A stretch of DNA of 64,000 bases from contig WSXX01000013.1 in NCBI GenBank assembly GCA_009773515.1, positions 1 through 64,000 on the forward strand, read 5' to 3'. The DNA is from Bacteroidota bacterium (GTDB lineage Bacteria > Bacteroidota > Bacteroidia > Bacteroidales > Lentimicrobiaceae). The notes under the pieces are model-generated. The model ran no database searches and was not told where the DNA came from. It was given only the letters and a program-made list of their open reading frames with translations. Below are positions 48,340 to 63,508 of this stretch, piece after piece (the first letter of the stretch is position 1; every line of letters starts with the position of its first letter). Both the position numbers and the translations under genes were made by a program.

Positions 48340-48445
48340 CCCTTCGACTTCGCTCAGGGTGACAAGTTGCTGCTGAAAGCTTAGTGAATTATTCAGATAC
48401 TTTTTCCTCATCTTAAACGATGTCACGCTGAGCGGAGTCGAAGCG
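48340..48445. repeat. Two opposed copies of the dispersed CTGAGCGGAGTCGAAG repeat
   Basis: A reverse copy at 48340-48364 and a forward copy at 48421-48445 fill most of the 143-bp gap, so the pair itself forms a large inverted repeat. Confidence 0.75.
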
Positions 48446-48470
48446 CGTTCCCATTTAAAATTCCAACATT

Positions 48471-50936
48471 ATGACTCATCTTAAAATCAAGTTTTCGTCT
48501 TTTATTCTCTGTCTGGCGCTTTTGATAACCAGTCAATACGTTTTAGGTCAAAAGCTTTCACTAAAAGTTGCCGGCGATGAAATGTCTGGTTTCCGTGTTG
48601 AAATTTACAATGGCACAGAGTTACTTGTCAACAACACCGGAGAATTTTCATTACAACTGAGCAACCTCGACCTGAGTACCATTGCAGATTTACCTGACTG
48701 GAAAGGAAAGCAGTGGGAAGGGAATGAAAACCGCATCACACTGAAAAGGGATTCCTACATCCCTGAGTTTGATGCAAACCTTATGGTGGCTGTTACTTAC
48801 GAAGTGGTGAATGCCAATATCGTGAAGAAAACGGTTGAACTATTCCAGCCATCTATGCCGGGCATGTATTATATTTTGCAGCAAACTTCAGTACCTGCCG
48901 AAAAACCATTGCGTTATGTCAGTTTCGAATACGATAATTTTCCGGGTGGATTTGTTCACGAAATATATCCCGCCGCCGGATTTATAACTTCTAAAAACGA
49001 TGTTGTCGGTTTTCTGACCGATGCCGGTTATAAAAATCAGTTTACACGAAACACCCGTCGCCGTTTCAGCGGAAGAGGCGGAGGATTTGTTGGCATAAGG
49101 CGTTTACCGGATGTCAATCTGTTTGCCGTTGCTACATCGGTGGAACAATCAGAAAACAAACATTATATCCGGCAAACATTTGGCGAAATGCTCAATGTGG
49201 ATGCCGGGACAGAAACTATCTTGCCAGTAACGGACAAATATCAGAAAGAAGGCAACTCAGAAGTGCAGTGGAAAGACGGACTGATCACCATCACCGGCCA
49301 CCCGGGCGGAAGGGCAGGGGTTGAGTTTATCACACCCTTTAAGGATCAGAAACTTTACACGATTTCATTCCTCTGCAAAGGCAATACAGGGGTGGCGATG
49401 AAACTTTTCAGGATGAAAAACAGAGTAAAAACCATCGAACTGGAACATGGCGTAAAATACATTGATAACTTTCCGGCAAACGAAGATGAATGGACTCAAT
49501 TTAAAGGCAGCATCCTTGTGCCTTATATCGAAAATGACAGCGTTTCCATGTTTATCGGCTCTCAATCGGGGAAGGAATGTAATCTTCAGATAATGGATCT
49601 GCAATTTACCGAACATCAGCCGCAGCAGGAACCTTACAACCTGCTTCCATTGGGCGAAAAGGTGGAGAAAACCACCTATATTTTTGTAGAACCCTGGAAA
49701 TCGCATCAGCAGTTTATGATTTCCGCACAATCGCGTCTAGCCGAAGCCAAAGGTTTTCAAGGATCGCAGATTGAGAAAATGTTGTATGCAAATTTCAATA
49801 TGCTCACCTGGATTACTGATACACGGGATTTTACACCCTTCAATGTGCCCAATATGAATTATGCGCCGGATATGTACAACCGGGATTCATTTTTTGCGAC
49901 GGTGTCAACTTATAACAAGCAGTTAAATCTTTCCATCTGGGAACAGTGGGGCAAAACCCAGACTCCTGAAGGTGGCGTTGGAACCATCATTACTCCATTG
50001 ATGGGCTCTGTTGAAGCAAAGGACAACGAAGCCACCATTCATTGGCTCATCTGGGCCATGCTCAATAAGCGAAGGTTTGGGGTTGAACTTCCGCAGGAGA
50101 AAATTCGAAAGGCAGTTGATTATGTCTTAAACGAATTTGATGCTGACCGCGATGGGAAATGCACTGCACGTTTTTCGCTCAGTCAGGTGGATATTGTTGA
50201 TTTTGACCCAAAAACTGATCGCCTTGACGTGAATCAGGGAATGCTGGCCATTGCGCTCCGAACGATAAAAGAGCTTGGGTTCGATATTTCGGAAGACTAT
50301 ATCCTGAAAGCAGAAGCAGAATACCGTAATTTTTACGATACTGAAAGGAAGCATCTGATGTTTGACCGCAATTTTCCCGACATCATCACCCACACCGATC
50401 TGGAACCTGAATTTTTCTCACTCTGGCTTTTTGACCGGCCAATCCTTACCAATGAAATGGTTAAGAATCACCTGGATCAGATGCCGGTTTTGAACAAAGT
50501 TTCAAACTCACCACATCCTGAATACGGCACCACAGCGCCCATTTGCGTGAGAAAAACCAGAGATGAAAAGGGGTTTACTTACCTTACCGGTGACTATCAG
50601 CCATTCGAAAAATTCGGTGAAGACAATTACAGCGATGGCAAAAGTGACGGATTTTACTACAATGGCGGCAGTTGGTTCAGGGCGGAGTATTGCGCCTATG
50701 TGGTGGGATTAAAACATGGTTGGACAAAGGCCGAAAAACTGATGGAGAACAGGATATGGGCTGAGATTTATCTTCATCCTGAATGGCCTTTCAGCAAAGA
50801 ATTCATCCCGACAAAATATACAACAATCGATAGCTGGTGGCCTTCTTCCCGTGGCTTGTGCTGGAATGTTTTTATTTTGATGGCTAATGAAGTGGCGGGG
50901 TTGAGGGTACCGGAGATGGATCCGGATTTTAGATGA
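48471..50936 (+). CDS. Putative exported (alpha/alpha)6-barrel glycoside hydrolase, 821 aa
   Basis: Signal peptide (ILCLALLITSQYVLGQ). The first ~400 residues are beta-rich (sugar-binding-like). The C-terminal ~400 (NYAPDMYNRDSFFATVSTYN, EGGVGTIITPLMGSVEAKDN, DVNQGMLAIALRTIKELGF, FDRNFPDIITHTD, SWWPSSRGLCWNVF) resemble alpha/alpha-toroid glycosidases of the trehalase/GH63/GH15 type, with acidic residues in RD, EAKDNEA and TDLEPE as candidate catalytic groups. I cannot assign a family. Its stop codon is followed at once by a GGTTAA repeat array. It forms a cluster with the GH13 and LamG genes upstream. Confidence 0.65.
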   Translation: MTHLKIKFSSFILCLALLITSQYVLGQKLSLKVAGDEMSGFRVEIYNGTELLVNNTGEFSLQLSNLDLSTIADLPDWKGKQWEGNENRITLKRDSYIPEFDANLMVAVTYEVVNANIVKKTVELFQPSMPGMYYILQQTSVPAEKPLRYVSFEYDNFPGGFVHEIYPAAGFITSKNDVVGFLTDAGYKNQFTRNTRRRFSGRGGGFVGIRRLPDVNLFAVATSVEQSENKHYIRQTFGEMLNVDAGTETILPVTDKYQKEGNSEVQWKDGLITITGHPGGRAGVEFITPFKDQKLYTISFLCKGNTGVAMKLFRMKNRVKTIELEHGVKYIDNFPANEDEWTQFKGSILVPYIENDSVSMFIGSQSGKECNLQIMDLQFTEHQPQQEPYNLLPLGEKVEKTTYIFVEPWKSHQQFMISAQSRLAEAKGFQGSQIEKMLYANFNMLTWITDTRDFTPFNVPNMNYAPDMYNRDSFFATVSTYNKQLNLSIWEQWGKTQTPEGGVGTIITPLMGSVEAKDNEATIHWLIWAMLNKRRFGVELPQEKIRKAVDYVLNEFDADRDGKCTARFSLSQVDIVDFDPKTDRLDVNQGMLAIALRTIKELGFDISEDYILKAEAEYRNFYDTERKHLMFDRNFPDIITHTDLEPEFFSLWLFDRPILTNEMVKNHLDQMPVLNKVSNSPHPEYGTTAPICVRKTRDEKGFTYLTGDYQPFEKFGEDNYSDGKSDGFYYNGGSWFRAEYCAYVVGLKHGWTKAEKLMENRIWAEIYLHPEWPFSKEFIPTKYTTIDSWWPSSRGLCWNVFILMANEVAGLRVPEMDPDFR

Positions 50937-50940
50937 GGAT

Positions 50941-50998
50941 GAGGTTAAGGTTAAGGTTAAGGTTAAGGTTAAGGTTGAGGTTAAGGTTAAGGTTGATG
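50941..50998 (+). repeat. GGTTAA hexamer array, left flank of module 1
   Basis: About nine AAGGTT units (two with GGTTGA), beginning directly after the upstream stop codon, on the left of a four-helix-bundle gene. Confidence 0.9.
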
Positions 50999-51054
50999 GT
51001 AGAGACAAATCCAATTCTTTGTATTTTTACCTGATAATTTTTAATCTCAGATAT

Positions 51055-51411
51055 ATGTATAGAAGTTTTACCGAAATGCCAGTATGGCAAAAAGCACATC
51101 AACTTTCAATTGAGATCTTCAAAATAACAGCCAATCTGCCCAGATCAGAAGATTATGGTTTGACATCACAGATCAGACGTTCGTCAAACAGTGTTCCCGC
51201 TAATATCGCAGAAGGATTTGGGCGAAATACAAAAAAGGACAAAGCCAATTTTTATATTATTGCCCGCGGCTCGTCTTATGAAACCCAGAATCACCTGTTA
51301 TATGGCCGGGCAGTAGGTTATTTTGATGAATTGATCACAGAAAAACTTTTCAGTGAGTATTCTGATCTTATCTATGAACTGAATAAAATAATAAATGCGT
51401 TTACAAGGTAA
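51055..51411 (+). CDS. Four-helix-bundle protein (S23/IVP, TIGR02436-like), module 1
   Basis: 118 residues from MYRSFTEMPVWQKAHQL. An ATG at 51019 is in frame, but the family N-terminus starts at 51055. The signature QIRRSSNSVPANIAEGFGRN is diagnostic of the S23/intervening-sequence four-helix-bundle family (related in fold to Avd of diversity-generating retroelements). Its biochemical role is unknown. The stop codon lies inside the right-hand GGTTAA-type array (51405-51474), and a left array begins at the upstream gene's stop. One of four members of this family in the window, each bracketed by a different simple repeat. Same direction as the upstream hydrolase gene. Confidence 0.88.
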   Translation: MYRSFTEMPVWQKAHQLSIEIFKITANLPRSEDYGLTSQIRRSSNSVPANIAEGFGRNTKKDKANFYIIARGSSYETQNHLLYGRAVGYFDELITEKLFSEYSDLIYELNKIINAFTR

Positions 51412-51474
51412 GGCTGAGGTTAAGGTTAAGGTTGAGGTTAAGGTTAAGGCTAAGGAGGTTGAGGTTGAGGTGAA
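51405..51474 (+). repeat. GGTTAA/GGTTGA hexamer array, right flank of module 1
   Basis: Same unit and same strand as the left array; it overlaps the last codons of the four-helix-bundle gene. Confidence 0.88.
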
Positions 51475-51598
51475 GCAATGATTTATTAGAAAGACCATTA
51501 CATATAAAGAGAGTAAAGTAGTTTTTAAATTGCTTTTTTCTCCGAAAAGTGTGTCAAAATAATTCTCAATGATTCTACGATCAATAATTTCACGATTC

Positions 51599-51624
51599 CC
51601 TCAACCTTAACCTCAACCTCAACC
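51599..51624 (-). repeat. Inverted GGTTAA/GGTTGA array closing module 1
   Basis: CCTCAACCTTAACCTC and following bases are the reverse of the unit at 50941 and 51405, ending 5 bp before the stop of the next, convergent gene. Module 1 is therefore bounded by inverted copies overall. Bases 51475-51598 hold no gene. Confidence 0.85.
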
Positions 51625-51628
51625 CATT

Positions 51629-52009
51629 TTACCAGGTTCCGGCCGGAGAAAACAGAAAATCAGTCTGACTATCTATATCATATAGAAATTGATATCCTTT
51701 TGTCTCTTTGTTGCAAAATTGTTCCAACAGGGCAATCATTTGCTCATATCCTGCGATGGTGAGATCACAATAGAATTGCATTTTGTCGGAAGTGGTAATT
51801 CCTTCATCTTCATCTGCAATGCGGAGGGTGAGTCTGCAATTTCGTGCAATTATAAAGTTAATGGTTGAGAGATCGAGAGACTTTCTGTTCATAACGAGTG
51901 TTTCATGAACGATCTTCATGAATTTTTTCGCTTCGGCACTGTCAAAATCGTAAAGCCTGACGATATTGTCGCCATATTCGTTAATTTCATCAATGAAATC
52001 AAGGTACAT
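51629..52009 (-). CDS. Conserved-looking hypothetical protein at the end of the leucine operon, 126 aa
   Basis: No family recognised. Small, acidic, mixed alpha/beta (YGDNIVRLYDFDSAEAKKFM, NFIIARNCRLTLRIADEDEG, YEQMIALLEQFCNKE), no signal peptide or TM helix. Its ATG is 24 bp downstream of the scoB stop on the same strand, so it is probably the last gene of that operon. The Asp/Glu-rich middle could bind a metal or act as a small accessory protein, but nothing specific is seen. Confidence 0.6.
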   Translation of the reverse strand: MYLDFIDEINEYGDNIVRLYDFDSAEAKKFMKIVHETLVMNRKSLDLSTINFIIARNCRLTLRIADEDEGITTSDKMQFYCDLTIAGYEQMIALLEQFCNKETKGYQFLYDIDSQTDFLFSPAGTW

Positions 52010-52033
52010 ATTTAGTTTTTAGCAAAGTACAAA

Positions 52034-52690
52034 TTAAAACTGCATTTCCGGCACGTCTCCTTCCACAATCAATCGCGCTTCGGTTGCGGCTATAATTTCA
52101 TCCACACTTACGCCGGGAGCCCGTTCGAGCAGTTTAAATCCATTATCGGTAACTTCAATTACCGCCAGATCGCTGACGATTTTCTTAACGCACCGAACGC
52201 CGGTCAAAGGCAAGGTACATTCCTTCAGTAATTTCGATTGGCCATCCTTGCTGCAATGCTGCATGGCAACCACAATGTTTTTTGCCGAAGCCACAAGGTC
52301 CATGGCGCCACCCATACCTTTCACCATTTTGCCGGGAATTTTCCAGCTTGCGATATCGCCCTTGTCGGTAACTTCAAAAGCACCGAGCACTGTAAGATCA
52401 ACATGTCCGCCACGGATCATGGCAAAACTTGTTGATGAATCGAAGAACGATCCACCCGGAAGCACCGTAACAGTCTGTTTTCCTGCATTGATCATATCGG
52501 CATCAGCCTGGCCTTTTTCAGGGAACGGACCCATGCCCAGCATCCCGTTTTCTGACTGCAAAACAACTTCTATTCCATCCGGAACATAATTGGCCACCAG
52601 GGTTGGAATTCCGATTCCGAGGTTAACATAATAACCGTCTTTTAGTTCCTGCGCTATACGTTGCGCTATTTGTTCCTTTGATAGTGCCAT
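52034..52690 (-). CDS. scoB: 3-oxoacid (succinyl-CoA:acetoacetate) CoA-transferase subunit B
   Basis: 218 residues. The catalytic Glu is in SENGMLG; other family motifs are YVNLGIGIPTLVANY, GGHVDLTVLGAFEV and GMGGAMDLV. With subunit A it moves CoA from succinyl-CoA to acetoacetate, giving acetoacetyl-CoA, the end of ketogenic leucine breakdown. It is separated from scoA by a 191-bp repeat-filled gap rather than the usual overlap. Confidence 0.93.
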   Translation of the reverse strand: MALSKEQIAQRIAQELKDGYYVNLGIGIPTLVANYVPDGIEVVLQSENGMLGMGPFPEKGQADADMINAGKQTVTVLPGGSFFDSSTSFAMIRGGHVDLTVLGAFEVTDKGDIASWKIPGKMVKGMGGAMDLVASAKNIVVAMQHCSKDGQSKLLKECTLPLTGVRCVKKIVSDLAVIEVTDNGFKLLERAPGVSVDEIIAATEARLIVEGDVPEMQF

Positions 52691-52727
52691 GCTTGAATTA
52701 TTTTGATACTATTATTTTGAATTTGAT

Positions 52728-52881
52728 TTTAGGGGTCGGGGGACGAGGGTCGAGGGACGGCAATCCGCAATCCGAAATCCGCAATCCGAAATCAATGAGG
52801 GCGGGAGGGACGGAAGTCAGAAGTCGGAGATCAGAGATCAGAGCTTGGGAATCTGCAATCCGAAATCCACAATCCGAAATT
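52728..52881. repeat. Repeat-filled gap between scoB and scoA (empty or collapsed module)
   Basis: Two patches of AATCCGC/AATCCGA heptamers (about 52770-52794 and 52853-52879) in direct orientation, plus GGGGGACGAGG and GAGGGACGG motifs (52738-52759) like those of module 2, and short direct repeats around AGAAGTCGGAGATCAGAG. No gene remains inside. Confidence 0.7.
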
Positions 52882-53571
52882 CTACCTTTCCGTGAGTCTC
52901 TCAATCCTTTTCTCATAACCCTTTCCCTGAAAAATCCTTTGTACAAAAATTCCGGGTGTATGAATCTGGTTTGGATCGAGTTCGCCGGCCGGAACCAGTT
53001 CTTCAACCTCTGCAATGGTAATTTTGCCTGCCGTTGCCATAGCCTGATTGAAGTTATTCGCGGTGTGACGGTAAATCAGGTTGCCGTGGGTATCGCCTTT
53101 CCAGGCTTTTACGATGGCGAAATCGGAAGTTAGTGCAAGTTCGAGCAGATGTGGTTTGCCATTGTATTCGCGTACCTCTTTGCCTTTAGCAACTTCGGTT
53201 CCATAACCTGCCGGAACGAAAAATGCCGGAATGCCTGCGCCACCGGCTCTGCAACGTTCGGCCAGGGTTCCCTGAGGAATAAGGTCAACTTCAAGTTCTC
53301 CAGCCAGTAATTGTCGTTCAAACTCAACATTTTCGCCAACGTAAGAAGAGATCATCTTTTTGATCTGGCGTTTTTGCAGCAGCAGACCCAGTCCAAAATC
53401 ATCCACTCCGGCATTGTTCGAAATACAGGTTAGATCTTTAACTCCGCTTTCAACAAGCGCCATAATGCTGTTTTCCGGAATTCCACTCAGTCCGAAACCG
53501 CCAACCATAAGGGTCATTCCATCGGCAATTCCCTGAATGGCTTCACGGGCATCTTTCACTACTTTGTTCAT
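52882..53571 (-). CDS. scoA: 3-oxoacid CoA-transferase subunit A
   Basis: 229 residues, typical length. [18 protein letters not shown] and the segment [20 protein letters not shown] are signatures of CoA-transferase family I subunit A. The last codons merge with the AATCCG-type repeat patch, so the C-terminal tail (ERLTER) may have been altered by repeat insertion. It lies 63 bp downstream of the HMG-CoA lyase gene. Confidence 0.93.
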
Positions 53572-53634
53572 AGACTTATGCTTTTATAGTTCTTAACACC
53601 AATATCTTCCTTTGGTTCTGAAAGATACAAAAAA

Positions 53635-54486
53635 TCAATAACCGGTTTCAATGGCTTTGATTATGTGCTCTTTACTGAGATGGTGATTTGCAATTTTCTC
53701 TTCAAGGAAATCAATCAGCTTCATCGTATTCAGGTTTCCAACCAATTCATATCCAGTCATCGGACAACCGCCGATGCCATTGATAACTCCTTCATACCAG
53801 CGGCATCCGGCATTCCAGGCAGATTCTAATTTCTGGTGCCATTCATTGGGTCGGGTGTGAATATGAAGGCCAAATTCGTGGTCAGGAAATTTGTGAAGCA
53901 AAGCATTGTAAACTTCTGAAATCTGGCTGGAATCTGCAATGCCAATGGTATCTGCAAGGGTAATGGTGTGGATTCCTTTTTCTGCAAGAATCTCTATGTG
54001 TTCTTCCAGCAAACCTATACTCCATGGGTCTCCATAGGGATTTCCATAAGCCATGCTCATAAAGATGCGCAGGGTTTTATTGTTATCCTTGCATATTTCG
54101 AGCAAATCATCGATGGTTTTCAGTGCTTTCTCATGGTCGGAATTGATATTCTTCTGAAGAAAAGTTTCAGAAATGGAATAAGGAAATCCGATAATATCCA
54201 GCTTCTGATGTGTTGCCGCCTCAAGTCCTCCGCGCAGATTACCTGCAATAGCCATTAATTTAGTTTTGCTTTCTGACTTATCCACCAACGCAAGAACCTT
54301 ATCCTGGTCAGCCATCTGGGGAACTGCTTTTGGCGAAACAAAACTCCCGAAGTCAATCACATCAAAACCAACTTTCATCAAGGCATTGATATACGCGGCA
54401 CGTTTTTCAGGGGATATAATATAGGATAAACCCTGCTGAGCATCTCTGGGTGATTCTGTGAGTTTTATGGGAGTATTTTGGTTCAT
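53635..54486 (-). CDS. mvaB: Hydroxymethylglutaryl-CoA lyase
   Basis: Splits HMG-CoA into acetyl-CoA and acetoacetate. 283 residues from MNQNTPIKLTESPRDAQQG. The frame is open to 54600, but the extra 38 residues (PRPFSTSLVPL) are translated module 2 repeat, so the ATG at 54486 is the real start. Active-site features: ESPRDAQQG (R14-D15), FVSPKAVPQM, metal histidines in LHIH (H208, H210) and the catalytic Cys241 in GIGGCP. It lies between the acyl-CoA dehydrogenase and scoA, matching its step in leucine catabolism. Confidence 0.93.
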   Translation of the reverse strand: MNQNTPIKLTESPRDAQQGLSYIISPEKRAAYINALMKVGFDVIDFGSFVSPKAVPQMADQDKVLALVDKSESKTKLMAIAGNLRGGLEAATHQKLDIIGFPYSISETFLQKNINSDHEKALKTIDDLLEICKDNNKTLRIFMSMAYGNPYGDPWSIGLLEEHIEILAEKGIHTITLADTIGIADSSQISEVYNALLHKFPDHEFGLHIHTRPNEWHQKLESAWNAGCRWYEGVINGIGGCPMTGYELVGNLNTMKLIDFLEEKIANHHLSKEHIIKAIETGY

Positions 54487-54499
54487 TGGTGTTTTTTTA

Positions 54500-54595
54500 A
54501 GGGGGACGAGGGACGTTGAAAAGGGGCGGGGGACGATATTTAGGGGCGAGGGACGGTTTAGGGGGATGAGGGACGGTTTAGGGGCGAGGGACGTA
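54500..54595 (-). repeat. GAGGGACG-type repeat array, left flank of module 2
   Basis: Repeats of GGGGCGAGGGACGGTTTA and GAGGGACGTTGAAAAGG, the reverse complement of the 20-mer at 55081-55180, lie between the lyase start and the four-helix-bundle stop. Confidence 0.85.
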
Positions 54596-54617
54596 TGCAC
54601 CTCGAAATGAAATCAGC

Positions 54618-54983
54618 TTAGTGTTTCGTTTTGGATTCCAGAGTTTGTATTGCTTTAGTTTCCATCGCAATGATGGTGTCAAGTTTCGTAATTCTGGAAT
54701 TAATAATATCAGCATTTAGCAAATGGTTACTTCGCAAATACCATCCCTTTGATTCACGGGAAGAACCTCTGCTGATTCTTAGATACTGCGGATACTCTTT
54801 CCCGAATCCTCTTCCATAACCCTCTTCAATATTGGCGCTTATGGAACCAACAGATCTTACCAGCTGTCTGGCAATTTCTTTGCCTCTGAAATCAAGCATT
54901 AATATTTCGGTATCACTCCACATCTCATTCCAGATCTCCATAGAGAGCTTATAAAATCCGATTTCATCCAAACGATCGTTCAT
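54618..54983 (-). CDS. Four-helix-bundle protein (S23/IVP-like), module 2
   Basis: 121 residues from the ATG at 54983 (MNDRLDEIGFYKLSMEIWNE); the frame continues upstream into non-conserved sequence. The family motif is QLVRSVGSISANIEEGYGRG, then YLRISRGSSRESKGWYLRSN. Sits between the acyl-CoA dehydrogenase and HMG-CoA lyase genes, in the operon's direction, bracketed by inverted arrays of a 20-bp unit. It is a passenger rather than a pathway enzyme (inference). Confidence 0.85.
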   Translation of the reverse strand: MNDRLDEIGFYKLSMEIWNEMWSDTEILMLDFRGKEIARQLVRSVGSISANIEEGYGRGFGKEYPQYLRISRGSSRESKGWYLRSNHLLNADIINSRITKLDTIIAMETKAIQTLESKTKH

Positions 54984-55071
54984 TTTTCTTTTTGTTAATA
55001 GATGAATAATAATTTTGATAATCTTACCAGTTTCTACTTTCTTACTTTCTCTTCGTCCCTTTTCCATCGCT

Positions 55072-55180
55072 CCTCGTCCCTTTTCAACGTCCCTCGTCTC
55101 TTTTCAACGTCCCTCGTCCCTTTTCAACGTCCCTCGTCCCTTTTCAACGTCCCTCGTCCCTTTTCAACGTCCCTCGTCCC
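55072..55180 (+). repeat. Five exact-register copies of a 20-bp unit, right flank of module 2
   Basis: The unit TTTTCAACGTCCCTCGTCCC is tandem from 55081 to 55180 with a single T/C difference in the first copy, plus a partial copy before it. The array ends 3 bp from the acyl-CoA dehydrogenase stop. Confidence 0.95.
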
Positions 55181-55182
55181 AT

Positions 55183-56328
55183 CTAGCAACCAATATACCT
55201 TGAAATGACTAACCGTTGTATTTCGGAGGTGCCTTCACCAATCTGAAGCAATCGCTGATCGCGGTAAAATCTTTCAATGGGGTAATCTTTCATCAGGCCA
55301 TATCCACCATGAATCTGAACGGCTTCGTCGGCCACTTCTTTGGCTATTTCGGAGCAGTAAAGTTTGGCCATGGCTGATTCTTTGGCAAATGGCTGATTGG
55401 TATCTTTCAGCCAGCAAGCTTTATAGAGCAGGTTTCGGGCAAGTTCAATTTTCATAGCCATATCGGCAAGTTTAAAGGAAATTGCCTGAAATTTTGAAAT
55501 AGACTGCCCGAACTGCTTGCGCTCTTTTGCATATGCAAGGGCAAGTTCAAAGGCTCCCTGTGCGCAACCCAGCCCCATAGCAGCAATGGAAAGCCGGCCT
55601 GAATCAAGGGTTGAAAGCATGATTTTTGAGCCTTCACCAATCTTTCCAAGCACATTCTCTTCCGGAACGCGACAATCGTCGAAGAAAAGCTGTGCCGTAT
55701 CTGAAGCGCGCCACATCATTTTGCCGTGCATGGTTTGTCGGGTGAAACCAGGCGTATCTTTATCAACCAGAATGGTGGTAAATTCCTTTTTACCCTGTTT
55801 TTCACCGGTTACCGCCTGAACGGTTGCACCCATTGAAATATCGGCAGAACCATTGGTAATAAAAATTTTGGAGCCATTGATCACCCATTCACCGTTCTCA
55901 AGGGTAGCGCGTGTTTTTGAACCTCTGGAATCTGATCCGGCATCGGGTTCGGTTAAACCGAAGGCCCACAAAGCATCGCCGGAACAAAGTTGAGGCAGGT
56001 ATTTCATTTTCTGCTCTTCGGTGCCGTAATAATACAATGGCCCGACGCCCAGAGAGTTGTGTGCTGCCAATGTAGCTGCCTGAGAGCCGTCGATTCGGGC
56101 AAGTTCCTCTACCGCTATAATATAGGAAATGTAATCCATCTCCTGTCCGCCATATTTTTGTGGAAGGTAAATGCCAAACAAACCCAGTTCTCCCATTTTA
56201 CGGGTTAGTTCAACTGAGAACTCAGCTTTTTCGTCGAGTTCCTGTGCTACCGGCTTTATTTCACGCTCAGCAAAATTGCGAACGGTTTCCCGGATCATTT
56301 GATGCTCTTCACTCAGGTTAAAGTCCAT
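55183..56328 (-). CDS. Acyl-CoA dehydrogenase (isovaleryl-CoA dehydrogenase by context)
   Basis: 381 residues from MDFNLSEEHQMIRETVRNFA; an ATG at 56364 lies in the module 5 repeat and is rejected. FAD/acyl-CoA motifs: ALTEPDAGSDSRG, KIFITNG, RKQFGQSISKFQAI, QIHGGYGLMKDYPIERFYRD. The catalytic base is Glu365 in GEGTSEIQR, the short/medium-chain position. Canonical isovaleryl-CoA dehydrogenases have a non-acidic residue there and a Glu in LDLER, which here reads LDSGR. Placement between HMG-CoA lyase and methylcrotonyl-CoA carboxylase argues for isovaleryl-CoA (or another branched acyl-CoA) as substrate. Electrons go to ETF. Confidence 0.9.
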   Translation of the reverse strand: MDFNLSEEHQMIRETVRNFAEREIKPVAQELDEKAEFSVELTRKMGELGLFGIYLPQKYGGQEMDYISYIIAVEELARIDGSQAATLAAHNSLGVGPLYYYGTEEQKMKYLPQLCSGDALWAFGLTEPDAGSDSRGSKTRATLENGEWVINGSKIFITNGSADISMGATVQAVTGEKQGKKEFTTILVDKDTPGFTRQTMHGKMMWRASDTAQLFFDDCRVPEENVLGKIGEGSKIMLSTLDSGRLSIAAMGLGCAQGAFELALAYAKERKQFGQSISKFQAISFKLADMAMKIELARNLLYKACWLKDTNQPFAKESAMAKLYCSEIAKEVADEAVQIHGGYGLMKDYPIERFYRDQRLLQIGEGTSEIQRLVISRYIGC

Positions 56329-56340
56329 AATATTTAATTT

Positions 56341-56376
56341 TTTGCCACTAAGTCTCAAAGGCACAAAGGCTCACTA
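56341..56376. repeat. GCCAC-AAGGCACAAAGGCTC-type repeat, left flank of module 5
   Basis: TGCCACTAAGTCTCAAAGGC, then ACAAAGGCTCACTAAA. An inverted related copy lies at 56836-56862 across the GxxExxY gene. Confidence 0.75.
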
Positions 56377-56392
56377 AAATTTTTAAATGTTT

Positions 56393-56788
56393 TTACCTGA
56401 TAAACCTCTTTATTCCATCTTTAATTAAAGGAACATTAAAATTTATCAGATATCCGAGCCGTTTATCTGTTAAACGTAAGTGACTGATTACTTGTGATAC
56501 CCATACAGGATTTATTGTTTCAACCGCTTTTAATTCGCAAATTACCAAATCATTCACTATTACATCCAATCGCAACCCTTCTTCAAAAATAAGCCCATCA
56601 AAAACAATCGGTATATCGAGTTGTCGTTTTGTCTCAAAACCCGCTTTGGTGAGAACATGACAAAAACAAACTTCATATACTCTTTCCAATAGACAAGGTC
56701 CAAGTTCCTTATGAACAAGGTATACTGCTTCAACGACTGCTTTTCCAATTCTTTCTTCTTCTTCTGTAAGTTTATGATATTGAAGCAT
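56393..56788 (-). CDS. GxxExxY family protein, module 5
   Basis: 131 residues. The family hallmark is GPCLLERVYEVCFCHVL, with LRLDVIVNDLVICELKAVET and a C-terminal GYLINFNVPLIKDGIKRFI, the GxxExxY/PDDEXK_3-like fold. The D...ExK spacing (LDVIVNDLVICELK) is nuclease-like, but activity is unproven. It sits between the acyl-CoA dehydrogenase and carboxylase alpha genes in the operon's direction, bracketed by inverted short repeats like the four-helix-bundle modules. Confidence 0.88.
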   Translation of the reverse strand: MLQYHKLTEEEERIGKAVVEAVYLVHKELGPCLLERVYEVCFCHVLTKAGFETKRQLDIPIVFDGLIFEEGLRLDVIVNDLVICELKAVETINPVWVSQVISHLRLTDKRLGYLINFNVPLIKDGIKRFIR

Positions 56789-56835
56789 TTTAACTTAATT
56801 TAAGACGGATAATCTTGAAAATATCTTTGTGTAAC

Positions 56836-56862
56836 TTAGAGGCTTAGTGCCTTTGTGGCATA
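56836..56862. repeat. Inverted counterpart repeat, right flank of module 5
   Basis: GGCTTAGTGCCTTTGTGGCA is the reverse complement of TGCCACAAAGGCACTAAGCC, matching the 56341 flank with some rearrangement of the CACTAAG/CAAAGG subunits. It ends 5 bp from the carboxylase alpha stop. Confidence 0.75.
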
Positions 56863-56866
56863 AAAA

Positions 56867-58840
56867 TTATTCCAGCTGCACCAACCTTGCACTACCGTCA
56901 ACCATATCTCCTTCCTTCACCAAAAGTTTTTCAACCACACCATCTGCAGGGCAAAGGATATTGTTCTCCATTTTCATCGCTTCAACAACCATCAGAACCT
57001 GATTTTTACTGACTTCTTCTCCTTCTGAAACCATGATTTTCAGGACTCTTCCCGGCATAGGAGAAACAATGTTTTTGTTGTCAATGTTCATGGTTCCGGT
57101 TTCAGCAAATGTAACATTTTCAGGGCCGGCCATATCGGGGCGTTCCACCAGAAAATCAAAACCTTTATACGTAACCGGGAAACGTCCTTTCTCATCCTCC
57201 CCAATATAAATCAAGTGACTGACGCCATTCAGACTAAGCTTTGACTGTAAATTTGCCGAGGTAAGCACTGCTTCTCCTTCGGTTTCGCCCAGCATGAAGC
57301 GAATGTGCCCGTTTATATTTTTCAGTATCCTGATTTTAAAATTCTTACCATCCAAAGTTACAGCCGGTTGCTGAATGCTGCGCCAGTAACCTATGGTTTG
57401 CCAGATGTTACCGGGGTTTTCGTGTTTTACAGCAAGGCTTTTCATAAAACCAGCCATCAACGGAACCTCAGGGGTTAGTGAAGATTTCAGACCTTCGGCA
57501 AACTCAATTAAAGTTTCCAGATGATCATCAATATACCTTGTAGTGATTGTGTTTTCAATAAACGAAGGGTGATGCATCATACCAACAAGAAATGAAATGT
57601 TGGTGTGTATTCCCTGAACCGCATAATTTTCAAGAGCAGAGATCATCCGCAGCCTTGCTTCTTCGCGGGTTTCGCCTTGGGTGATAAGCTTGCCGATCAT
57701 CGGATCGAAAAACGAATGAATTTGTCCGCTGCCGGCAATCTCCATGCTGTCAACCCTTATGTGCGGGCCGTATGGTTCATGATAAAGATTGATAAAGCCC
57801 GGTGAAGGCATAAAGTTGTTGGCAGGGTTTTCAGCATAAATCCTGCATTCAATGGCATGGCCGCGTTGTTTCAGATCCTGCTGTTTATACCGTAGCGGTT
57901 CGCCGGCGGCTATGTGCAATTGTTCTTCAATCAAGTCAACACCTGTGGTCATTTCCGTTACCGGATGCTCCACCTGAATACGGGTATTCATCTCAAGGAA
58001 GAAATAATTCAGATCGCTGTCAACCAGAAATTCAATGGTTCCGGCGCTGTAATATCCGATTGAGGAAGCCAGTTTAACAGCCGAATTGCACATTTTTTCA
58101 CGGACTTCAGGTGTGAGGGTTGGCGAAGGAGCTTCTTCCACAATTTTCTGATGACGCCGCTGGGCAGAACATTCACGTTCAAAAAGATGAACCATATTGC
58201 CATGTTTATCGCCCAGCACCTGAACCTCAATATGGCGTGGATTTTCAACAAATCTTTCAATATAAATGGTTCCGTCGCCAAAGTAATTCAGGGCTTCACG
58301 CGAAGTGGTTTCAAGCGCCGAGGCCAATTCTTCTTCGGTGCGGACAATGCGCATCCCTTTTCCGCCGCCACCTGCAGCCGCTTTAATCAGCATCGGGAAA
58401 CCGACATTCGCATGGTTTTTCAGCAATTCATCAGGCGCACCCGTAATGCCATTGGTTACCGGCACTCCAAGCTTTACAGCAACCGCACGGGCGGCAATTT
58501 TATTTCCCATCGCCCTTACGGAATCCGCTGAAGGCCCGACGAAAAGGAAACCTTGGCGTTCGCAGGCTTCAGAAAACAAAGGGTTTTCGGAAAGGAAACC
58601 ATATCCGGGATGTACGGCTGTGGCAGCGGTTTTTTTGGCTGCAGCCAGAATAGCTTCAATATTAAGATATGTCTCCGCGAGGCTTTCACCCGGAAGCAGC
58701 ACAGCTTCATCGGCTTGCAGCACATGTTGCGCCGAACTGTCATATTGCGAATAAACTGCAACGGTTGAAATACCCATGTGGCGGGCAGTTCTTTGAATTC
58801 TGAGGGCGATTTCGCCACGGTTGGCTATTAATAGTTTCAT
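56867..58840 (-). CDS. mccA: Methylcrotonyl-CoA carboxylase alpha (biotin carboxylase/biotin carrier) subunit
   Basis: 657 residues. Biotin carboxylase domain (about 1-445): KLLIANRGEIALRIQRTARH, AAGGGGKGMRIV, ERECSAQRRHQKIVEEAPSP, FLEMNTRIQVEHPVTEM. A BT-type linker domain precedes the biotinyl domain, with VEAMKMEN carrying biotin on Lys623. With the beta subunit it carboxylates 3-methylcrotonyl-CoA to 3-methylglutaconyl-CoA. The assignment over propionyl- or acetyl-CoA carboxylase rests on the surrounding leucine genes. Confidence 0.92.
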   Translation of the reverse strand: MKLLIANRGEIALRIQRTARHMGISTVAVYSQYDSSAQHVLQADEAVLLPGESLAETYLNIEAILAAAKKTAATAVHPGYGFLSENPLFSEACERQGFLFVGPSADSVRAMGNKIAARAVAVKLGVPVTNGITGAPDELLKNHANVGFPMLIKAAAGGGGKGMRIVRTEEELASALETTSREALNYFGDGTIYIERFVENPRHIEVQVLGDKHGNMVHLFERECSAQRRHQKIVEEAPSPTLTPEVREKMCNSAVKLASSIGYYSAGTIEFLVDSDLNYFFLEMNTRIQVEHPVTEMTTGVDLIEEQLHIAAGEPLRYKQQDLKQRGHAIECRIYAENPANNFMPSPGFINLYHEPYGPHIRVDSMEIAGSGQIHSFFDPMIGKLITQGETREEARLRMISALENYAVQGIHTNISFLVGMMHHPSFIENTITTRYIDDHLETLIEFAEGLKSSLTPEVPLMAGFMKSLAVKHENPGNIWQTIGYWRSIQQPAVTLDGKNFKIRILKNINGHIRFMLGETEGEAVLTSANLQSKLSLNGVSHLIYIGEDEKGRFPVTYKGFDFLVERPDMAGPENVTFAETGTMNIDNKNIVSPMPGRVLKIMVSEGEEVSKNQVLMVVEAMKMENNILCPADGVVEKLLVKEGDMVDGSARLVQLE

Positions 58841-58846
58841 GATGGG

Positions 58847-58877
58847 AATTTCTAATTTCTAATTTCTAATTTCTAAT
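58847..58877 (+). repeat. ATTTCTA heptamer array, left flank of module 3
   Basis: Four ATTTCTA units directly upstream of the carboxylase alpha start; the reverse unit TAGAAAT flanks the other side of module 3. Confidence 0.9.
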
Positions 58878-58948
58878 GTCGATGTGTCGAACATTTGAAA
58901 TTGAAAATAGTAATGGGAGAATGATTAAACTATTTTTTGAAAAAAGTA

Positions 58949-59302
58949 TCATTTGGTTTTTGTTTTTTGGTAAATCGAATTGAAAATCAGGTTCAATTCA
59001 TGAGCTTCTTTTTGTAAGACAGAAGATTCCAATACTTTTTCAGGTACTGCAACATTGATCATTCTGAGAAAGAAGCTTGACTCTTTTGACTCTTTTCTGC
59101 AAATCGAAATTTTATGCCTGAAATCAGGTTTACTTTCGGCATTATCTGCTTCAGCATAATTTGCTCCAACGCTAGTACCTGCCTTAACTAACTGATATAT
59201 TAGAGGAGTTGTAACAACAGTTCTGGGCAGTGAAATACAGAATCTTATGATATTCTCCCCAAAAATAGATGTTCTCTCCAAAAGATCATAAGTCCTGTTC
59301 AT
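58949..59302 (-). CDS. Four-helix-bundle protein (S23/IVP-like), module 3
   Basis: 117 residues, the most diverged of the four. VKAGTSVGANYAEADNAESK stands for the family's SxxxxANIxEGxGR motif, followed by HKISICRKESKESSFFLRMI. Inverted TAGAAAT arrays bracket it. Its first ~10 codons are repeated twice more downstream of its start, at about 59407 and 59549, as part of a junction duplication. Same direction as the flanking operon genes. Confidence 0.82.
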   Translation of the reverse strand: MNRTYDLLERTSIFGENIIRFCISLPRTVVTTPLIYQLVKAGTSVGANYAEADNAESKPDFRHKISICRKESKESSFFLRMINVAVPEKVLESSVLQKEAHELNLIFNSIYQKTKTK

Positions 59303-59697
59303 CTCTACTATTGTTTAGAAATTAGAAATTAGAAATTCCATAGGGCTTTTCTTTTTTCCAAAAACGCCGCCATTCCTTCCTGTCCTTCTTCTGAGGCACG
59401 GATTTGTTCTCTCCGAAAGATCATAAGTCCTGTTCATCTCTACTATTTTTTAGAAATTAGAAATTAGAAATTAGAAATTCCATAGGGGTCTTCTTTTTTC
59501 CAAAAACGCCGCCATTCCATCCTGTCCATCTTCTGAGGCGCGGATTTGTTCTCTCCAAAAGATCATAAGTCCTGTTCATCTCTAATATTTTTTAGAAATT
59601 AGAAATTAGAAATTAGAAATTAGAAATTCCAAAGGGCTTTTCTTTTCTCCAAAAACGCCGCCATTCCTTCCTGTCCTTCTTCTGAGGCACGGATTTC
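59271..59697. repeat. Triplicated junction: 5' end of module 3 gene + TAGAAAT array + 3' end of the hydratase gene
   Basis: Three ~136-149 bp units (59271-59406, 59407-59548, 59549-59697). Each joins the first codons of the four-helix-bundle gene to the last ~23 codons of the hydratase gene through TAGAAAT repeats, with 3, 4 and 5 heptamers respectively. Only the outermost ends belong to intact genes. A tandem duplication initiated within the arrays explains this. Confidence 0.9.
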
Positions 59698-60411
59698 CGC
59701 TATCATTTTAGCAGTGTAGCTCAGTGCTTCTTCAAGTGTGATTTTATTGGATACCTGATCAATCAGAGTTTTGCATTGCGACATGGCTTTGGGGCCGCTG
59801 CTCATCAGCAGGGCAATCAGTTCATTGAGGTAGGTTTCCAACTCATCGGCTGAAAGCGATTTATTCACCAGCCGAAAACGTTCAGCTTCCGGTCCATTGA
59901 CTCTTTTTCCGGTGAGCATCAGTTCGCGGGCGCCATATTCACCAACACGCTTAATTACGTAAGGCGAAATACATGCAGGCACAATTCCGATTTTAACTTC
60001 CGAAAGTGAAAATACAGTTTCATTATCGCAAATGGCCATATCGCAAGCGGCAAGCAAACCGTTGGCACCGCCTATCGCAGCACCGTGAACCACTGCAATG
60101 GTGGGTTTGCTGCAACTGTATATGGCATAGAAACAGTCAGACAATTGCAGACTTTCTTTGTAATTCTGTTCGTAACTGTATTTTGCCACATCGCGCATCC
60201 AGTTGAGGTCAGCGCCTGCACAAAATGATTTTCCGTGACCACGGAGCAGAACAACCCTGATGTTGTCCATTTTGTTGATTTCAGTGAAAATCTCAAGCAC
60301 TTCCGAAATCATCACTTCATTAAATGCATTGTGTATCTGGGGGCGGTTAAGCCAAACGGTTGCTATTTGGTTCGTGATTTCAATTTCTATGGTGTTGAAT
60401 TTTGTGTTCAT
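59620..60411 (-). CDS. liuC: Enoyl-CoA hydratase family, probable methylglutaconyl-CoA hydratase
   Basis: 263 residues, crotonase fold. Oxyanion-hole segments GKSFCAGADLNWM and VVHGAAIGGANGLLAACDMA; the SLSEVKIGIVPACISPYV segment carries the catalytic Glu region typical of AUH-type hydratases. Hydrates 3-methylglutaconyl-CoA to HMG-CoA, between the carboxylase and HMG-CoA lyase steps. The last ~23 codons are present two extra times downstream as fragments in the triplicated junction, but the full-length gene is intact. Confidence 0.92.
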   Translation of the reverse strand: MNTKFNTIEIEITNQIATVWLNRPQIHNAFNEVMISEVLEIFTEINKMDNIRVVLLRGHGKSFCAGADLNWMRDVAKYSYEQNYKESLQLSDCFYAIYSCSKPTIAVVHGAAIGGANGLLAACDMAICDNETVFSLSEVKIGIVPACISPYVIKRVGEYGARELMLTGKRVNGPEAERFRLVNKSLSADELETYLNELIALLMSSGPKAMSQCKTLIDQVSNKITLEEALSYTAKMIAEIRASEEGQEGMAAFLEKRKALWNF

Positions 60412-60433
60412 GATTTGTTTTTTTTAAGAGTGT

Positions 60434-60477
60434 GAAGTAAGAATTATGAGGTAGGAAGTAAGAGGTAAGAAGTGAGT
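60434..60477 (-). repeat. GAGGTAAGAAGTAAG-type array, left flank of module 4
   Basis: Irregular heptamers (GTAAGAA, GTAGGAA, GTAAGAG, GTAAGAA) between the hydratase start and the four-helix-bundle stop; the inverted form is at 60908-60952. Confidence 0.8.
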
Positions 60478-60499
60478 TTTAGATTTAAGATGTAAGGAA

Positions 60500-60874
60500 C
60501 TACTTCCATCGTTCTTCGAGTCGCCAGAGTTTACCTCCTAAAGTTTCGTACTCTGGGAAAAAGGCATCGAATTGTTCTATAGAAATGTAATTGCAATCAC
60601 GGGCAAACATTAGCCAGGATTTTGTTTCTTCAAGAGAGCCATTGGCATCTACCAATTGTTTTTTAAAATAAAGCGGATATTTCCTTTTCCCCCACCCTTC
60701 GGCAATATTGGCAGCAACAGATCTCGATGATCGCCGGATTTGATCTGTCAATGAGTATCTTTCTTCAACCGGGAAGCTGGCGCTTATCCAAAAAATATCC
60801 ATTGCAAGTTTATGTGCTAAACGATACACTTCGAGATCCATAAATGATCTGATAGGCTTAAATCCTGTTTCCAT
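60500..60874 (-). CDS. Four-helix-bundle protein (S23/IVP-like), module 4
   Basis: 124 residues. DLEVYRLAHKLAMDIFWISA and the signature QIRRSSRSVAANIAEGWGKR are diagnostic; LVDANGSLEETKSWLMFARD completes the third helix. A second ATG 11 codons in (MDLEVYRLAHKL) may be the true start. Lies between carboxylase beta and the hydratase in the operon's direction, bracketed by inverted heptamer arrays. Confidence 0.88.
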   Translation of the reverse strand: METGFKPIRSFMDLEVYRLAHKLAMDIFWISASFPVEERYSLTDQIRRSSRSVAANIAEGWGKRKYPLYFKKQLVDANGSLEETKSWLMFARDCNYISIEQFDAFFPEYETLGGKLWRLEERWK

Positions 60875-60907
60875 AATATGCTGATTATTAATGATTAGCG
60901 GTTTTTT

Positions 60908-60952
60908 TCTTACCTCCTACCACTTACTTCCTACCTCTTACCTCCTACATCC
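60908..60952 (+). repeat. CTTACCTCCTACCACTTAC-type array, right flank of module 4
   Basis: Reverse-oriented version of the 60434-60477 repeat, ending at the carboxylase beta stop. A gene-free array of the same class is at 22019-22061. Confidence 0.82.
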
Positions 60953-60954
60953 GT

Positions 60955-62640
60955 CTACATCCTAAACACCCCAAACCTCGTCTCCTCCCAATGTTTATTC
61001 ATCGAAGCTGAAATGCCCATTGCCAGAATCTTCCGTGTATCAACCGGGTCAATAATACCGTCGTCCCACAGGCGTGCTGTGCTGTAGTAAGCCGAGCCTT
61101 CTTCTTCGTATTTTTTCAGGATAGATTGGCGAAGTGCTTCGCGTTCAGCATCGGGCAAAGTTTTTCCTTTTGCTTTGAGTTGATCTTCCTTTACAGTGAT
61201 CAGAACCCCGGCAGCCTGCTCGCCGCCCATCACCGATATTTTTGAATTTGGCCACATAAACAGAAGCCGGGGTTCGTAAGCGCGACCGGCCATCGCGTAA
61301 TTTCCGGCACCGAAACTGCCACCGAAAACCACCGTAAACTTTGGCACACGGGCATTTGCTACAGCATGTACCAGTTTAGCTCCGTCGCGGGCAATTCCTT
61401 TGCGTTCGTATTCGCGGCCAACAATAAAGCCGGTAATGTTTTGCAGAAACAGAATGGGAACTTTTCGTGATGTGCAGAGTTCAATAAAGTGAGCACCTTT
61501 CAACGCGGTTTCGCCGAAAAGCACGCCATTGTTCGCCAGTATTCCAACCGGAAATCCCATAATGTGCGCAAAACCGGTGGTGAGGGTAGGAGCGTAGCGG
61601 GCTTTAAATTCGTGAAAACGGCTGCCATCAACAATCCGGGCGATGATTTCTTTTGAGTCAACCGGTTTGCGCAGGTCAAGCGGAGCAATGCCGTATAATT
61701 CTTCGGGATTGTAATAGGGTTCTTCAATGGGCTGAAGATCAAGAGGCTGTCGGTCAGCAACTTTAAAAGTGCGGAAAATATCGCGGCAGATGCGAATGGC
61801 ATGCTGGTCATTCTCAGCCATGTGATCTGCAACTCCGGAGATGCTGGTATGAACATCCGCGCCGCCCAGCTCTTCGGCGGTGACTTCTTCGCCTGTTGCA
61901 GCCTTTACCAGTGGAGGTCCGCCAATAAAAATGGTGCCTTGATTGCGCACAATGATGGTTTCGTCGCTCATGGCCGGGACGTAAGCGCCGCCAGCTGTGC
62001 AACTTCCCATCACAATGGCAATTTGCGGAATCCCTTCAGCCGACATACGCGCCTGATTGAAGAAGAACCGCCCAAAATCATATTTATCCGGAAAAACCTT
62101 TGACTGTTCCGGAAGAAAAACGCCGCCCGAATCCACCATATACACGCAGGGTAGGTGGTTTTCCATGGCAATTTCCTGAGCCCGGACGTGTTTTTTTATG
62201 GTTTCCTGCACATAAGTTCCCCCTTTAATGGTGGCATCGTTGGCCACGATCATGGTTTCGCGGCCATGAACTACACCAATGCCGGTAATGATTCCGGCAG
62301 ATGGAAACTCATTGTTGTGAATGCCGTTGGCCGCCATGGCTGAGAGTTCCAGAAATGGCGTATTCGGATCAACCAGCAGATCGATGCGTTCGCGGGCCAG
62401 CAGTTTGCCTCGTTCTTTATGTTTTTTAACAGCTTGCTCAGGCGCACCGTTTATGGTATCGGCCATGCGCTGCCTGTATTGCCCCAGCAGTTGCTGGTAG
62501 GCTTCAAAATTTGAACGGAATTCCGCCGATTTTGTGTCAATTTTAGATTCTATCCTGTACAAAGCTGGGAGGGTTTTTGTGATTTCCTGATAACTGATTG
62601 CTAAAATAGGGAATTTAAGCTTCAAAGCATTAAACACCAC
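60955..62640 (-). CDS. mccB: Methylcrotonyl-CoA carboxylase beta (carboxyltransferase) subunit
   Basis: Up to 561 residues. Carboxyltransferase motifs: [94 protein letters not shown] and [19 protein letters not shown]. These closely fit methylcrotonyl-CoA carboxylases. The 62640 ATG gives about 25 residues more than the usual N-terminus; a TTG start just before [14 protein letters not shown] is a good alternative. It is the most upstream leucine-pathway gene of the run. Confidence 0.93.
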
Positions 62641-62671
62641 GAATTTTGCGTTGTTCAGGTTTGCTTCTTGA

Positions 62672-62808
62672 AAATATGGAAATCAGAAACCGCTAATGAT
62701 CATTTTTCTATTTATGGAGATGCTAGAAAAGAGGAATTCAGGGAAATATTAAATAATCTAAAGATCGATAATTGGATACGTTATGTTAACAAGGAATCAA
62801 TCAATTGA
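62672..62808 (+). pseudogene. Possible gene remnant (C-terminal coding fragment)
   Basis: A + strand frame with protein-like composition (IYGDARKEEFREILNNLKID, then NWIRYVNKESIN) ends in TGA at 62806-62808. It has no start or upstream body, because the carboxylase beta gene occupies that space, and it overlaps the HEPN gene's 3' end. May be the tail of a displaced gene; weak evidence. Confidence 0.25.
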
Positions 62809-63487: not shown

Positions 63488-63508
63488 AAAACAAAGATAA
63501 GTAAAAAA

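Follow-up and report, generated by a model that had tools for sequence, protein, structure and literature searches.

A leucine-catabolism operon in a Lentimicrobiaceae genome (Bacteroidota bacterium; GenBank assembly GCA_009773515.1, contig WSXX01000013.1, positions 1 to 64,000, hereafter the window) raises the question of how small genes of two families, set between arrays of short repeats, come to lie between conserved operon genes, and what those repeats may do there. An earlier note, made from the letters of the window alone, had taken five such modules for a candidate undescribed family of mobile or duplicating cassettes. On the comparisons reported here we consider it probable, with reservations, that the modules are hairpin elements of operon mRNA resembling the intervening sequences (IVSs) of rRNA genes, with the small gene in the loop and the repeat arrays as arms.

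The loop would be an S23p/IVP or a GxxExxY gene (the passenger), and the arms would be self-complementary arrays of a unit of about 7–8 bases. Since the passengers stand in sense orientation between operon genes, a module would be transcribed within the operon mRNA, where its arms may pair with each other; by analogy with rRNA IVSs, RNase III may then excise the passenger or cut the cistrons apart, and the insertion would thereby become tolerable. Passenger and arms would be inherited, replaced and sometimes transferred jointly, as a cassette, and the modules may be selfish or nearly neutral to their host. The features concerned, in window coordinates, are these:

50936–50996, plus strand: 5′ array of module 51, AGGTTA/AGGTTG 6-mers, beginning at the stop codon of an 821-amino-acid (aa) gene; 6-mer listed at 50942–50994
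51055–51411, plus strand: passenger 51, S23p/IVP four-helix-bundle gene; PF05635 120.9 bits, TIGR02436 116.9 bits
51405–51475, plus strand: 3′ array of module 51, in direct orientation relative to the 5′ array; AGGTTA 6-mer listed at 51405–51455
51599–51624, minus strand: inverted AGGTTA copy of module 51, 26 bp, next to the stop codon of the 126-aa gene; complementarity of 92% with 50967–50992
51629–62640, minus strand: host operon, with carboxylase subunits, enoyl-CoA hydratase-like (ECH), acyl-CoA dehydrogenase (ACAD), HMG-CoA-lyase-like and CoA-transferase A/B genes and a 126-aa gene
52732–52880, no strand assigned: scoA-scoB gap with arrays of at least three units (GGATTTC, GTCAGA and GGGACGA types, named by eye), passenger-free
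54496–54593, minus strand: 3′ arm of module 54, GGGACGA-type 20-mer array; 20-mer listed at 54522–54593
54618–54983, minus strand: passenger 54, S23p/IVP gene; PF05635/TIGR02436 match
55053–55180, minus strand: 5′ arm of module 54, 20-mer array of 6.3 copies, from the repeat listing
56343–56376, minus strand: 3′ arm of module 56, GGCACAAAG-type, short and imperfect
56393–56788, minus strand: passenger 56, GxxExxY gene of the PD-(D/E)XK superfamily; PF13366/TIGR04256 match
56822–56860, minus strand: 5′ arm of module 56, GCCACAAAGGCACTAAGCC
58845–58880, minus strand: 3′ arm of module 58, TTTCTAA-type 7-mers, listed at 58847–58877
58949–59302, minus strand: passenger 58, S23p/IVP gene; PF05635/TIGR02436 match
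59270–59696, minus strand: 142-bp unit, three times, at the junction of the ECH gene and passenger 58, from the repeat listing and reading by eye
59595–59630, minus strand: 5′ arm of module 58, 97% complementary to 58845–58880
60434–60476, minus strand: 3′ arm of module 60, GTAAGA-type 7-mers; 7/14-mers listed at 60434–60473
60500–60874, minus strand: passenger 60, S23p/IVP gene; PF05635/TIGR02436 match
60909–60952, minus strand: 5′ arm of module 60; 7/14-mers listed at 60909–60952

The domain matches confirm the five genes and their families as the earlier note had given them. It had further placed all five modules at junctions of the leucine operon, pointing with host transcription and bracketed by inverted arrays. 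Position and direction hold for four of them, whereas module 51 lies beyond the operon end and shares the direction of the 821-aa gene upstream of it instead of that of the operon. Inverted arrays are found on both sides in modules 54 (54496–54575/55088–55167, 78%), 58 (58845–58880/59595–59630, 97%) and 60 (60434–60476/60909–60951, 79%); module 56, which has no array in the Tandem Repeats Finder (TRF) listing, has short and imperfect arms, and the arrays next to passenger 51 are direct, its inverted copy being distant. For each passenger, RNA-duplex energies computed between the two entire flanks and compared with those of 200 shuffles gave z values of −4.5, −8.4, −3.5, −7.7 and −5.5 for modules 51, 54, 56, 58 and 60, the stem-forming complementarity of module 51 coming only from the distal copy at 51599–51624. 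The two junctions described as repeat-free, the lyase-scoA gap (63 bp) and the scoB-126-aa gap, indeed have no array in the repeat listing, and the scoA-scoB gap has arrays and no passenger. In module 58, AATTTCT/TTAGAAA 7-mers occur at 58847–58877, 59315–59337, 59450–59479 and 59592–59628; read by eye, the 142-bp unit comprises the end of the ECH gene, a TTAGAAA array and the start of passenger 58, and its triplication perhaps came about by recombination in the arrays. The host genes bear putative functions in leucine catabolism, following the earlier note; the 126-aa gene, the sole host gene scanned, gave no match.

The two passenger families share one architecture without being related, as the earlier note held: S23p/IVP and GxxExxY profiles compare with an hhalign probability of 0.1, and on that value the idea that they are distant relatives was rejected. 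A sequence search of the PDB led from IVP to 2gsc and 2rld and, for GxxExxY, to no relative at E 0.1. In the GxxExxY alignment the E and K of a D...E-x-K stretch, which we take to be the nuclease motif of the PD-(D/E)XK superfamily, are nearly invariant; judged by its PF13366 match and these residues, module 56, alone among the modules, has the nuclease open reading frame (ORF) with intact motif that marks homing endonuclease elements. That GxxExxY drives homing with such a nuclease is a guess.

Within the phylum, 284 out of 395 genomes have IVP matches. The genome of the window has 11 TIGR02436 matches representing 10 genes (one in two pieces), of which eight, by eye, are bracketed by repeats (four in the window, one on contig C30, two on C65, one on C46) and two, on C50 and C48, have none. 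Its three GxxExxY genes differ likewise, the window copy having arms, that on C46 repeats on the 3′ side only and that on C36 none, so unarmed members coexist with armed ones. The IVP gene on C46 (108477–108793, L167) contains an in-frame stop and has short AATTACG-type repeats on both sides. The C36 gene (139932–140252) belongs to a second GxxExxY subfamily, with one match of 77–90 bits in each of the 18 other same-genus genomes and no inverted arms in the four members examined (C36 by eye; L117–L119); with one copy per genome, it looks like a resident gene.

The bracketing extends well beyond this operon. Flanks were scored as inverted at p ≤ 0.005 against 200 shuffles, skipping flanks shorter than 100 nt or containing N, which kept 57 of 59 IVP loci from the genus and order, 30 of 30 from the phylum, 77 of 80 from named records, 25 of 26 GxxExxY genes (from 29 loci), 27 HEPN genes (from 30 loci) and 175 of 177 other ORFs. 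Inverted flanks were found for 27/39 IVP genes of the genus, 10/18 of other genera of the order, 13/30 of the phylum and 50/77 in named records across phyla, a set made up of the best 80, by similarity, out of 581 confirmed loci and not drawn at random. GxxExxY genes passed in 8 of 25 cases, a set that includes the resident-type members L117–L119. Among controls, no HEPN gene passed (0/27), and neither did most other ORFs (7/175 passed, and by eye five of these are GxxExxY genes, as the control ORFs had not been purged of that family). For loci outside the Bacteroidota/Chlorobi group, assigned from record names and many of them in metagenome-assembled genomes whose contigs may be misplaced, 18 of 25 passed.

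Other measures agree. With flanks of 350 bp, an inverted-flank score of 16 was reached by 36/59 IVP genes and by 3/177 control ORFs (L001, L002, L006, L007 and L008, which are window duplicates or broken, flanks under 150 nt and identical copies were omitted). A strict score of at least 16 was reached by 7/30 phylum IVP, 7/26 GxxExxY and 0/27 HEPN genes, counts that are low because degenerate arms are missed. Self-matching peaks at period 7 in IVP flanks and more weakly at 8–9 in GxxExxY flanks, with no peak in controls, and in other orders the units of the genus matched hardly any arrays, because the units there are different. Among genes with ORF neighbours within 900 nt, both neighbours were co-directional for 33/36 genus, 13/17 other-order, 24/26 phylum and 60/72 named IVP genes and for 13/19 GxxExxY genes, as compared with 13/26 HEPN genes and 77/153 other ORFs. 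At the level of sequence, these counts establish the shared architecture, its enrichment over controls and the sense orientation of the passengers.

Whether the two arms of a module evolve together could be followed in a Flavobacterium-like genus, many genomes of which (in a search centred on G375) contain close relatives of one IVP, several at one junction. In 24 genomes the gene lies at the same junction, whose flanking sequence also occurs in the Flavobacterium pectinovorum locus L240. For these 24 genes (of 28 rows, after dropping three duplicates and one without the common downstream start), the mean duplex energy was −33.95 kcal/mol with a gene's own arms, −27.97 with swapped arms and −13.25 in a reversed-arm control, and none of 5000 permutations paired as well as the own arms. 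By eye the unit drifts together with its partner arm, as in CTAAGATT, CTAAGGTT and CAAAGGTT. Arm co-evolution is in this way demonstrated for one orthologous set; it would arise from selection for pairing and equally from hairpin-templated repair.

Mobility was judged from the same operon in sister genomes, 17 of the same genus and three others, at four gaps: J1 (MccB-ECH), J2 (ECH-MccA), J3 (MccA-ACAD) and J4 (ACAD-lyase). Across the same-genus genomes these junctions are empty, occupied or differently occupied. As to the empty sites for which the earlier note had suggested looking, every readable J1–J4 junction is without a passenger ORF in 4 of the 17 genomes (G003, G008, G009, G011); outside the genus, G056 has none at J1 and J2. 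J2 holds an IVP gene with TTTCTAA arms in five genomes (that of the window included) and an unrelated-looking one with GGATTTC arms in six; J4, one with GGGACGA arms in six and another with ACAAGG arms in six; J3, a GxxExxY gene with GGCACAAAG arms in four and another with CGCAAAGA arms, some interrupted, in four. At J2, J3 and J4 passengers flanked by the same unit are 53–99% identical and those with different units 17–50%, without overlap within a junction; at J1, where three non-passenger ORFs are included, the values are 85–98% and at most 67%. Units were called with eight patterns drawn from these very flanks, not blind to the outcome, and in G007 and G017 at J2 the unit was detected on one side only. 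As the unit tracks the passenger type without exception at J2, J3 and J4, array and passenger behave as one cassette.

On a tree of the host genes the four junctions require at least 6, 5, 5 and 6 state changes; states were assigned by hand, with a separate state for one decayed J3 copy, and the tree, 4 of whose 16 inner branches were weak when it was rebuilt, omits genes with in-frame stops (G000 ECH, G016 MccB and MccA, G017 MccA). Passengers at J2 and J4 in G005 and G016 differ from those of their sister genomes. The sisters G001 and G013, with host proteins 94–100% alike, differ at J1, where G001 has passenger 60 and G013 a 187-bp gap with other arrays; the swapped stretch runs from the stop codon of the carboxylase gene to about 45 bp inside the following gene, which looks like allele exchange. 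Insertion by allele exchange with relatives fits this one sister pair. At fourfold sites passenger 60 of the window is 73, 77 and 70% identical to its counterparts in G001, G006 and G016 (n = 44 each), as against 32–53% for host genes in the same pairs, which supports spread of the passenger 60 cassette between species, and transfer for this cassette only. Two J2 pairs are somewhat above the host at silent sites (G010-G012, 65% as against 36–55%; G001-G018, 58% as against 37–47%). So far as aligned genomes can tell, then, unit and passenger are linked, passengers turn over between sisters and silent sites attest one cassette transfer.

These comparisons bear directly on the reading that the passengers are simply conserved small genes with ordinary regulatory hairpins, handed down vertically, which we hold to be very unlikely. 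In its favour are the IVP gene at one junction throughout 24 genomes of a genus and the array-less, resident-looking members in the present genome (the C50 and C48 IVP genes and the C36 GxxExxY gene); it has to contend with the presence of passenger 60 in only one of the sisters G001 and G013, with the deviating J2 and J4 passengers of G005 and G016 and with at least 22 state changes, as hand-scored, over the four junctions. By these sister comparisons it is already contradicted for the operon. Recurrence of a passenger at one junction among sister genomes, which the earlier note had set against a mobile cassette, is nonetheless seen in part, in the 24 genomes. The mobility it proposed is supported by empty or differently filled sister junctions and by one cassette that spread between species. 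Because the passengers turn over between sisters yet share one junction in 24 genomes, the modules are neither freely mobile nor simply vertical.

Ordinary miniature inverted-repeat transposable elements (MITEs) or derivatives of insertion sequences, which end in inverted repeats and duplicate their target sites, would also bracket a passenger, and in G012 a multicopy element of about 700 bp with fixed ends and 8-bp target duplications does bear a GxxExxY gene. The junction modules have no fixed ends in common, ending instead in arrays that differ by passenger type, and no duplication was noticed where the arrays abut stop and start codons, though none was systematically searched for. We regard this origin as highly improbable and, on account of the differing array ends, rejected it for the junction modules despite the MITE-like element of G012. 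That element (L150–L163) is represented by 12 related stretches, some perhaps two halves of one copy, 79–96% identical in the comparisons made; its ends are GGGTT...ACCC, the 8-bp target duplications are exact in L160 and match at 7 of 8 positions in L150 and L152, the GxxExxY gene lies, by eye, between inverted ACACCA-type repeats, and several contigs begin or end inside the element.

Repeat arrays are also common in this genome without passengers. The pattern TTTCTAATTTCTAATT (one mismatch, overlapping places) has 237 genome matches against 1 for its reversed control, and a GGGACGA-type pattern 53 against 3. At 38 loci of the genome, most intergenic arrays point away from the ORF closest to them (58 of 73; 38/42 with the TTTCTAA unit and 20/31 with other units), and a left-then-right order is broken in 2 of 23 multi-array gaps; outward reading holds for 11/14 arrays in the window and 32/41 in the operons of the genus, where the order is broken in 1/3 and 0/4 multi-array gaps, respectively. 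Within the window, a 7-mer array (ACCTCTT, 4.9 copies) lies at 22024–22057, where the window IVP scan found no IVP gene, and a 21-mer array of 16.8 copies lies at 38191–38543, outside the operon. A HEPN-domain gene just upstream of the operon (62781–63173) has no adjoining array in the TRF listing.

Several observations weigh against hairpin elements as we propose them. The arrays immediately flanking passenger 51 are direct and therefore unable to form the proposed hairpin; direct-only arrays flank 4/39 genus and 1/77 named IVP genes and 2/25 GxxExxY genes, and neither inverted nor direct flanks reach p ≤ 0.005 in 8/39 genus, 8/18 other-order, 17/30 phylum and 26/77 named IVP genes and 15/25 GxxExxY genes. 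In the set of 24 same-junction genes the own 3′ arm ranks first in just 6 and stands 22nd and 24th in two, and covariation in fixed columns is weak because the register slips, with 8 consensus pairs, of which 2 show compensatory change, among 19 of the 24 genes (five with an unanchored and too long 5′ flank being dropped). The J2 and J4 passengers are mostly at host-like silent-site identity, which is expected under long residence. There is no transposase in the modules, and neither a target duplication nor a clean pair of empty and filled sites was noticed at the junctions, though these were not systematically searched for. Finally, among the matches listed, all 31 of 31 TTTCTAA-unit loci, chosen within the first 100 entries of a longer listing, lack a flagged IVP or GxxExxY gene.

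This last count, together with the polarity of the arrays and a like strand rule for published heptamers in the available text of PMC4692102, is what speaks for polar heptamer arrays as an independent intergenic feature, the passengers merely occupying gaps that bear them. We think this unlikely, if the most serious of the alternatives. Outside the TTTCTAA unit the outward rule reaches only 20 of 31; a unit in common on both sides goes with a passenger, and among the 14 gaps with both array polarities but no passenger only 1 has it; at an identical junction the unit tracks the passenger type across genomes; and IVP brackets with ever-changing units recur across phyla. The same facts dispose of the converse statement in the earlier note, that the bracketing repeat and not the protein defines the element: the repeat alone was rejected as its definition, the unit tracking the passenger type and arrays often standing alone.

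A further candidate is strand-polar repeat addition, in which intergenic breaks would be healed by adding short repeats to both 3′ ends, telomere-like or by slippage, so that arrays read outward, with the passengers captured or encoding a partner of the machinery. The left-then-right order in 21 of 23 multi-array gaps would follow from it, as would arrays without passengers and the strand bias of IVP flanks (G over C in the 5′ flank and C over G in the 3′ flank: phylum 29/30 and 28/30, genus 33/39 and 31/39, named records 69/77 and 53/77). A weak match of passenger 60, the only passenger listed, to the model of Avd points the same way (E 7.8e-5, 22.9 bits, below the cut-off of 80). Avd partners a reverse transcriptase. 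Against this stand the joint inheritance of unit and passenger type, flanks of GxxExxY genes without strand bias (12/25 and 6/25), a weak 3′ bias in the other-order set (9/18) and the location of the genome's single reverse transcriptase match elsewhere, on contig C44; we know of no enzyme that adds repeats in a strand-polar manner, and judge this account very improbable. Retro-mobility by Avd and reverse transcriptase, as in diversity-generating retroelements, was considered too: the passenger 60 score is far below the cut-off, and no reverse transcriptase lies beside the modules. The sole match in the genome, at C44:136744–137334 (L316), lies in a 331-aa ORF, and the ORFs beside it look, by eye and without a library scan, like the target of a diversity-generating retroelement.

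Hairpin elements of the kind we favour have a close published counterpart. According to the available text of PMC4990558, rRNA IVSs contain an S23p ORF in sense orientation, complementary ends and GACAGAT heptamers before the ORF, RNase III excises them in vitro, and they are termed selfish or parasitic elements. The modules are like them in the sense S23p ORF (4 of 5, the fifth being GxxExxY), in stem-forming ends and in tandem heptamers, which in rRNA IVSs lie just before the ORF; unlike those described there, the modules lie in gaps between protein genes, their arm unit varies by passenger and they have a second passenger family. No Rfam match was found in the window at 48000–64000, so the modules are not inserted in an rRNA gene, and the 16 of the 80 named IVP loci that were submitted gave no Rfam match either. 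Not being located in rRNA, the modules fall outside the rRNA IVS class as defined. As far as sequence-visible features go, they look like rRNA IVSs in all except place, and they are best called an operon-borne variant of the rRNA IVS.

Related repeats have been reported in other settings. In gaps between aligned ORFs of Xanthomonas and Nostoc, heptamers follow stops on the sense strand and precede starts on the antisense strand; convergent pairs number 70 and 75 in two Xanthomonas genomes and are few in Nostoc (PMC4692102). The arrays described here follow that strand rule (58/73 outward; 20/31 outside TTTCTAA), with several units, the TTTCTAA one free of G, unlike the G-rich unit with G-quadruplex potential reported there, where each lineage studied has one kind of unit and the available text makes no connection to S23p or GxxExxY. 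TAACTGA heptamers of Beggiatoaceae, Cyanobacteria and Bacteroidetes are likewise intergenic tandem repeats in distant lineages; they are direct and, in the main genome, mostly just before start codons, and the available text of PMC4679880 mentions no passenger. Genes for 23S_rRNA_IVP occur in cas loci, for instance between cmr3 and cmr2, and are thus, like the modules, set between operon genes, flanking repeats not being discussed in the portion of PMC3936711 at hand. Among the matches listed in a literature search covering few subscription journals, no report linked IVP or GxxExxY genes in operons to flanking arrays. The earlier description of the system as undescribed stands only in part, rRNA IVSs and polar heptamer arrays both being published (PMC4990558, PMC4692102).

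A wider interpretation, which we put forward as improbable, is that the operon modules belong to a bacteria-wide class of array-armed hairpin elements in operon mRNAs that carry S23p or GxxExxY genes, with rRNA IVSs as the best-known special case. A strand-polar process of repeat addition, or one templated by the hairpin, would generate or renew their arms, and the passenger protein would take part in it, so that each element type acquires new units while its arms stay matched. S23p/IVP and GxxExxY are widespread small families without known function; if they are passengers of a single kind of array-armed hairpin element, rRNA IVSs, polar heptamer arrays and both protein families would become one testable subject, RNase III cleavage would be predicted at marked places in many operon mRNAs, and it would be explained how such genes interrupt conserved operons without breaking them.

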